A stretch of 38,152 bases of DNA from positions 1 through 38,152 of the IMG/VR virus record IMGVR_UViG_3300036781_000830. One strand, 5' to 3'. A program made the translations under genes and the position numbers. The notes under the pieces are model-generated. The model worked only from the letters and a program-made list of their open reading frames with translations. It was not told where the DNA came from and searched no databases. This document shows, in pieces, positions 18,742 through 34,888 of the stretch; within the stretch, counting starts at the first letter, position 1, and each line of letters opens with the position of its first letter. The stretch comes from a virus.

Positions 18742-18815
18742 TGTGAGATGGAGCAGATGGTTAGCTCGTCGGGCCCATAACCCGAAGGTCGCGGGTTCGA
18801 GCCCCGCTCTCGCTA
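18742..18815 (+). tRNA. tRNA-Met (CAT), initiator-like
   Basis: The cloverleaf fits by eye: acceptor 18742-18748 with 18808-18814, D stem GAGC/GCTC, anticodon stem TCGGG/CCCGA with loop CCCATAA and anticodon CAT (18776-18778), and T stem GCGGG/CCCGC with loop TTCGAGC. Three G:C pairs close the anticodon stem and the first acceptor pair is a T-T mismatch. Both are marks of initiator tRNA. Position 33 is C instead of the nearly universal U. The 3' CCA is not encoded (CAACTT follows the discriminator A). Confidence 0.9.
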
Positions 18816-34082: not shown

Positions 34083-34112
34083 GCGCCTCGCAGCGATTGC
34101 GGGGCGTTTTTT
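34083..34112 (+). terminator. Intrinsic terminator, end of the late region
   Basis: CGCCTCGCA pairs with TGCGGGGCG (one T-G pair) around a 5-base loop, followed by six T. It is about 43 bases after the nuclease-like gene. Confidence 0.85.
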
Positions 34113-34125
34113 ATTTAATTGATAA

Positions 34126-34149
34126 TCTACTAATTAAATAATTAGTAGA
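34126..34149. other. 24-bp palindrome with 2-bp centre
   Basis: TCTACTAATTA and TAATTAGTAGA are perfect reverse complements, separated by AA. It is AT-rich, followed by ATTTTT. It may be an operator, a recombination or attachment core, or a weak terminator. Nothing else in 34113-34279 is recognised. Confidence 0.6.
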
Positions 34150-34279
34150 ATTTTTAATAACTATTTTAAAACATCACGATTTAAATTTTCGTAAAAAGTA
34201 ACAACCTAAGCATCTACCCAACTAATGAAGATGAGTTAAAAGATACACATATGAGACCAACCGGATAATCAATTTTTGT

Positions 34280-34287
34280 TACCTTTG
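34280..34287 (+). promoter_or_regulatory. Promoter -7 element TACCTTTG
   Basis: TACCTTTG is an exact match to the Bacteroidota TAnnTTTG element. A clear -33 TTG at the usual distance is not visible. Transcription would start near 34294 and run through the inverted repeats towards the JAB-domain gene. Confidence 0.55.
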
Positions 34288-34293
34288 ATAGGT

Positions 34294-34450
34294 AAATACT
34301 TCTTGTCGTTGCAGGTCTAAAATTCCGAAAATTAAAACAGCAACACAATGCAGGATGCGTCGAATATGGCGTGTGGCTGGCTATTTGTGTTGCATAGGGC
34401 CTCGGAACCCTTGACCTGGCAGATAGTTCAGTCCACGTCATATTTTTTTT
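34294..34450 (+). ncRNA. Candidate structured RNA
   Basis: Nested inverted repeats make a rod of three stems: CAGGTC/GACCTG (34312-34317 with 34413-34418), a symmetric 5x5 internal loop, TTCCGA/TCGGAA (34323-34328 with 34402-34407), a bubble of 11x8 bases, then GCAACACAA/TTGTGTTGC (34340-34348 with 34385-34393) and a 36-base apical part. A TACCTTTG element lies upstream and a run of eight T ends at 34450. The size and bubble recall 6S RNA, or it may be a leader that controls the JAB gene. No known family is established. Confidence 0.5.
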
Positions 34451-34456
34451 ATATCG

Positions 34457-34888
34457 TTGAAGCATTCGCGGTTAAGGGTAAGTTATAAACTTAATATTCT
34501 GTCTGATCATATAATATGTTCAAAAGACAGCCATTTGTTTTTTTCTGACATTTATGATAAATCATTACTTGAGCTTCAAGAACTTGTTTATATAATTTAT
34601 CTCAACAATAATAACAAAGTAATCAGCTGGATTCAGCTTAATAAGGGAACCTGTTCTGAAACTTTGTTTGATATAAAATTCGCTTTGGCTTGCGCTCTCG
34701 GCTGCATGGCATCTAAAATAATTATTGCACATAACCACCCATCAGGAAAGCTTACCCCATCCCCGGCAGATATCGAAATTACAAAGCGATTTATCAATAT
34801 TTCACGATTTTTAGATATCGTCGTCGAAGATCATTTAATCATTGGCCGTGATGGCTATTTCTCTTTTGCAGACCATGATTTGATATAA
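34457..34888 (+). CDS. JAB-domain RadC-like protein, 143 aa
   Basis: The motif H-x-H-P-S-G with PSPADIEITKRF (His92, His94, Ser96 and Asp105) is the metal-binding JAMM/MPN+ signature of RadC-type proteins. Full RadC proteins have an N-terminal HhH domain and about 220 residues; this one has only the JAB domain, as is usual for short forms in Bacteroidota phages and mobile elements. RadC has no agreed biochemical role, and any peptidase activity is unproven. The start is TTG 34457 because no ATG is found until residue 84. The gene lies right behind the candidate structured RNA and eight T bases, so translation or transcription may be regulated there. Confidence 0.75.
   Translation: MKHSRLRVSYKLNILSDHIICSKDSHLFFSDIYDKSLLELQELVYIIYLNNNNKVISWIQLNKGTCSETLFDIKFALACALGCMASKIIIAHNHPSGKLTPSPADIEITKRFINISRFLDIVVEDHLIIGRDGYFSFADHDLI

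Follow-up and report, generated by a model that had tools for sequence, protein, structure and literature searches.

A Bacteroidia family of structured RNA leaders with a predicted two-state fold, represented before a phage radC-type gene

The closest described RNA by context is the radC RNA motif (RF01754), which was reported from Proteobacteria, is about 149 nt long and named for radC, and appears in Table 1 of its description as a certain RNA that is probably cis-regulatory (Weinberg et al. 2010, PMC2864571). Attenuators and the expression platforms of riboswitches resemble the element described here in another respect, that is, one strand has two partners, the downstream pairing is followed by a U-run, and masking of the start codon, predicted for this element, comes as a second output. 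Two further kinds of element are similar in shape or in company: 6S RNA and 6S-Flavo RNA (RF00013 and RF01685) are rod-shaped and about 150-180 nt long, and the STAXI motif and integron attC are structured DNA at mobile genes, near DNA-handling genes and with mobile cargo. 6S RNA is the product of a stand-alone housekeeping gene, binds RNA polymerase and templates product RNAs. To our knowledge, few regulatory RNAs are known in the Bacteroidia. The leader described here belongs to a well-supported RNA family that is missing from Rfam, spread through the whole class and common to phages and chromosomes.

The window, meaning the whole 38,152-nt stretch of DNA that was analysed, corresponds to a viral record of 38 kb in which genes for terminase, portal, tape-measure protein, endolysin and integrase are present, and a tRNA gene (18742-18815, Rfam tRNA, 55.9 bits) is situated within its phage late region. 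The portal has relatives at 70-77% in many viral contigs, and the endolysin has relatives in Mucilaginibacter prophages; these Mucilaginibacter-type prophages are without the RNA and nearly all of them are without this RadC. The predicted regulated gene is a RadC-type JAB gene on the + strand (34457..34888, PF04002, E 5e-33), which starts with TTG and encodes 143 aa. The N-terminus MKxSxL(R/K)V is conserved from the TTG in RadC homologues of 52-57% identity. PADLOC gave no defence link for the RadC neighbours.

Three perfect stems are nested on the + strand 5' of this gene: the outermost stem 1 of 6 bp (CAGGTC 34312-34317 / GACCTG 34413-34418), stem 2 of 6 bp (TTCCGA 34323-34328 / TCGGAA 34402-34407), which a 5x5 loop separates from stem 1, and the innermost stem 3 of 9 bp (GCAACACAA 34340-34348 / TTGTGTTGC 34385-34393). 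Eight T (34443-34450) stand 5' of the TTG at 34457. The original prediction had located all of these elements correctly, and it had held that chance was unlikely to produce such an order of stems. The homologues decide this point in its favour, but the window sequence alone makes only a moderate case because 18 of 2000 dinucleotide-preserving shuffles also gave three nested perfect stems with a total of at least 21 bp (p ~0.01). The + strand folds with z = -3.28, none of 200 shuffles being as good, and the - strand, with z about -1 to -1.5, does not stand out from shuffles. The minus-strand coding alternative named with the original prediction was rejected: the frame there, of 83 aa, looks faintly XRE-like, but Pfam gave no match to it and neither of the leader-bearing RadC homologues keeps it open.

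The minimum-energy fold of the full-length RNA is not the nested rod; strands of the rod are used instead in a long hairpin (34362-34445). When folds were predicted for a transcript growing at its 3' end, the rod was preferred as long as this end had not passed about 34435, and from about 34441 onwards the hairpin took its place; the rod outcompetes the hairpin until the final ~15 nt of the transcript are present. A long hairpin followed by a U-run is also what a simple intrinsic terminator, or a hairpin arisen by chance, would look like without any switch; this explanation is very improbable, as both the rod and the pairings that compete with it covary over 31 sequences.

A RadC search in 400 Sphingobacteriaceae genomes and viral contigs gave three loci with the MKxSxL(R/K)V start, namely L106/L180, L189 (the same as viral L218) and L190. 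Before the phage-type RadC genes of L189 and L190 this leader recurs at the corresponding position, and its stems have changed in a compensatory way: stem 1 is CAGGTC/GACCTG in the window and CTGATC/GATCAG or CCGCTC/GAGCGG in the two homologues, and stem 2 occurs in the three as TTCCGA/TCGGAA or TTCCAA/TTGGAA. The comparison of homologous loci proposed with the original prediction was fruitful in this way, in the two RadC leaders and again in the family of 31 sequences. At L106, the closest RadC (57%), a T-run and a TTG start are present, but a search for the RNA was negative there even with the filters off. No match came from a DNA search of the region against phage and plasmid collections, from scanning viral and genome contigs for exact patterns that included the loop as it stands in the window, or from single-protein scans with RadC and with the upstream nuclease-like gene. 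Among core-pattern matches in viral contigs, four of six proved to be one coding sequence matching by chance and were rejected.

A covariance model made from the leaders of the window, L189 and L190 (R1) found matches in 28 of the 400 Sphingobacteriaceae genomes. The model was rebuilt from 31 sequences (R2), and with R2 the window scores 114 bits (E 7e-24) over the rod-like fold at 34309..34422 on the + strand. R2 matched in 20 of 295 genomes sampled across Bacteroidia (~7% of the sampled genomes), with 1-6 copies per genome in 28 of 30 chosen genomes; about five copies were found in one further Bacteroidota genome and none in 28 genomes outside Bacteroidota. In total 74 distinct members were collected; the membership of a few that score only 32-41 bits (L259, L295-L297) is open to doubt. 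The conserved core of the family is GUACGCC..GGCGURGCUGURUCUUU, and RACGYCAU and the T-run end are among its best-conserved parts. Tandem copies of the RNA occur at L260 (1501-1649 and 1717-1867) and L262 (1217-1367 and 1501-1654), 216 and 284 bp apart from start to start, and at L219:1489-1636 the minus strand scores 27 bits with R1 because the element is sufficiently self-complementary.

No Rfam family matched at the gathering thresholds, relaxed thresholds gave nothing beyond chance, and no description of the family was found in open-licence publications. In particular, RF01754 gave no match by covariance search in the window or the L219 region at E up to 5-10, nor in 10 host genomes at E 0.1, where the control genomes themselves match only weakly; the present family is set apart from the radC motif by this covariance-model score. 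We therefore regard the feature as a member of a Bacteroidia family of ~150-nt structured RNAs, phage-borne and chromosomal and absent from Rfam, and hold the reality of the RNA family to be practically certain.

The original prediction had also compared the element, for its size and central bubble, with 6S RNA, which mimics an open promoter. Length, rod shape and internal loops do speak for 6S RNA or a phage mimic of it that binds RNA polymerase. In contrast to 6S and 6S-Flavo RNA, this leader family is without a model match: RF00013 and RF01685 gave none at the gathering score, nor at E up to 5-10 on the window and L219 (in a whole-genome search with RF01685 no control gave a match). Moreover, it is present in 1-6 copies in ~7% of genomes, lies in cis directly 5' of diverse genes, has a second conserved fold in competition with the first and, in chromosomal members, repeats its 5' arm at the start codon. 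Binding to RNA polymerase in the manner of 6S has next to no likelihood, and promoter mimicry is not supported.

The rod consists of S1 (34309-34317/34413-34422), S2 (34323-34328/34402-34407) and S3 (34340-34348/34385-34393), all on the + strand, together with an inner hairpin A/M (34355-34361/34368-34374). In the alignment of 31 sequences 94.8% of its cells are paired, both partners vary in 27 of the 30 pairs, and 185 double-change cells were counted against 48.7 after shuffling; the pattern is lost when the partners are slid. As this alignment had been fitted to the model, the test was repeated on an independent MAFFT alignment (A10, 31 rows), where S2 and the inner hairpin A/M gave 99.0% paired cells, 39 double-change cells against 10.8, and a score of 0.386 against 0.180 for shuffled. 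Since the shuffle control leaves the kinship between the sequences in, the covariation argument is carried by the slid control and by how varied the pair types are. In the rod, 101 cells are G.U and only 9 are A.C, so the structure is assigned to the + strand RNA.

A second set of pairings uses the same strands. Strand M (34363..34387, +) has A (34355-34361) as its partner in the rod, or strand T (34420-34444) in an alternative hairpin, so A/M and M/T are alternatives by their shared strand. The U-run comes directly after T, and T with the T-run (34420..34450, +) makes the terminator-like half of the alternative fold. The M x T complementarity covaries across the family and is also present in the three RadC leaders. 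In addition, most Sphingobacteriaceae members have a repeat of the 5' arm after the T-run, which ends 0-6 nt before the ATG (for example CTCAAATTACGACAAA|ATG), and with this copy the 3' arm (S2'/S1', 34402..34418, + in the window) can pair as well as with the 5' arm. The mean duplex energy of 3' arm and leader copy over the family is -17.9 kcal/mol, against -13.15 +/- 0.45 for re-dealt leaders. In A10, the M-T pairing and the pairing of the 3' arm with the leader copy together gave 93.0% paired cells, 59 double-change cells against 19.0 and a score of 0.369 against 0.182 for shuffled, and the signal collapses with slid controls. Both sets covary, and hence both are constrained, though strands are common to them. 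A target-site duplication as the origin of the start-codon copy does not agree with the covariation between this copy and the RNA's internal 3' arm, and was rejected.

Conserved structured RNA directly 5' of a co-oriented gene is the mark of a cis-regulatory leader, and two covarying pairings that share one strand, one of them followed by a U-run, are that of an attenuator. The leader is thus best read as a cis-acting two-state 5' leader which would act by attenuation and start-codon masking of the following gene, in the window the phage radC-type gene; judged from sequence, we give this reading a probability of about 0.7. It agrees with the second proposal of the original prediction, a riboregulator of the TTG-started JAB gene. 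The leader would be transcribed from its own promoter and the rod, with S1-S3 and the inner hairpin A/M, would fold first. As the 3' end emerges, M would leave A and pair with T before the U-run to form the terminator-like hairpin, and in chromosomal members the freed 3' arm would pair with the repeat of the 5' arm that lies 0-6 nt ahead of the start codon, and so mask this codon. The rod would then correspond to the gene being on, and M-T, plus the 3' arm-leader pairing, to the gene being off. Of the two halves of the model, attenuation has the better support in the window, because the three RadC leaders have M-T but a start-codon copy that is weak or missing (p = 0.056 in the window, 0.08 and 0.78); pairing of the 3' arm with such a copy is only weakly evident in the window. 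Outside the main group, too, many members have only a weak copy or none.

The predicted mean energies of the rod (-51.8 kcal/mol) and the masked state (-48.9 kcal/mol) are near-equal. Against the two-state reading, the rod is predicted for most members to be more stable than M-T alone (mean -50.8 vs -41.9), and the M-T loop of ~50-60 nt is long for a classical terminator; M-T may also form with the rod intact, as a pseudoknot that coexists with the rod instead of alternating with it. Unlike attenuators and riboswitches, the leader family has no recognised aptamer or leader peptide, and its conserved core points to no ligand; its arms are variable and one of them recurs at the start codon, and it travels as a block before unrelated accessory genes. 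The arms vary between copies, but in any one of them the 5' arm, the 3' arm and the start-codon copy vary in concert, which makes the predicted switch directly testable.

A promoter-like motif and the U-run bracket the RNA, and these, with the complementarity of the 3' arm to the start region and the several copies per genome whose similar arms could cross-talk, would suit a separate small RNA with its 3' end at the T-run and with targets in trans, among them the mRNA behind it, reached through the 3' arm and the start-codon copy, in an antisense or type III toxin-antitoxin-like layout. We consider this rather unlikely, since in most cases a gene in the same orientation follows the element directly (its first ATG usually stands 17-26 nt past the model end), the conserved block continues through the T-run up to the start codon, and the cargo genes are not a toxin family.

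The putative promoter of the leader (34273..34305, +) comprises TTTTTG (34273-34278), an 18-nt spacer and TACTTCTTG (34297-34305). The spacing TTG-N17-18-TA(C/T)TTC recurs in both leader-bearing RadC homologues, and the AATATTGTACT motif is conserved family-wide immediately 5' of the RNA. TACCTTTG (34280-34287) had been proposed as the promoter element; the promoter position that the homologues share, as read from their sequences, is TACTTCTTG and not TACCTTTG. Within the spacer of the putative promoter there is an inverted repeat, TTACCTTTGATAGGTAA (34279-34295), which could be an operator, similar 25-mers being present at promoters in three host genomes. The short DNA matches to the region among the 400 genomes are promoter fragments, one of which lies upstream of a gene with gyrase subunit B-like first residues. 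The same intergenic region contains an AT-rich palindrome, TCTACTAATTA-AA-TAATTAGTAGA (34112-34163), possibly a protein-binding or recombination site. A terminator-like hairpin with a T-run (GCGCCTCGCAGCGATTGCGGGGCGTTTTTT, 34083-34112) closes the upstream gene and would, in ending it, isolate the RNA's own transcription unit.

The radC motif RF01754 is a 5' UTR element of radC or DNA-handling genes. The RNA described here stands ahead of a radC-type gene at three phage-type RadC loci, and most members precede other small genes. The downstream genes have no common pathway; 46 of them were scanned, about a dozen gave weak or single family matches only, and many of their N-termini resemble, by eye, signal or lipoprotein peptides. 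BLASTN between loci reveals a common block of 72-88% identity from about -10 (the AATATTGTACT motif) to about +170-190, that is, from the promoter to the start codon, with different genes behind it. Furthermore, 17 of 73 copies (e.g. L224:420-1340, L234, L235, L238 and L239) have an IS1595 transposase (PF12762) no more than 1.5 kb away, against 1 of 200 control windows; the controls were partly prophage-bearing Mucilaginibacter contigs unmatched for island content, so the link is an association only. It suggests a passenger-gene relation for the modules of RNA and cargo.

The IS1595 link, the same block before unrelated genes and the position of the window copy in an integrase-bearing phage could also be accounted for if the element served recombination or transposition as folded single-stranded DNA, similar to attC or STAXI. 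Such a structure is improbable here: unlike STAXI and attC, the leader family is G.U-rich and strand-specific and is tied to the promoter motif, U-run and start codon at constant spacing. Moreover, 56 of the 73 copies are without an IS1595 transposase within 1.5 kb, and a scan for inverted repeats at eight IS1595-adjoining loci gave no clear shared transposon ends.

A common leader on unrelated orphan genes implies that accessory and mobile genes of Bacteroidia share a signal. As a tentative extension of the two-state leader, we propose that promoter, two-state RNA and start-codon copy of its own 5' arm may form a mobile self-contained cassette, moved intact, in the phages, transposons and islands of Bacteroidia, to positions before orphan genes that are not related to one another, as an on/off switch for the cargo under that signal. 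At several loci (L236, L237, L260 and similar ones) the second gene downstream encodes a recurrent protein of ~185-205 aa without a Pfam match.
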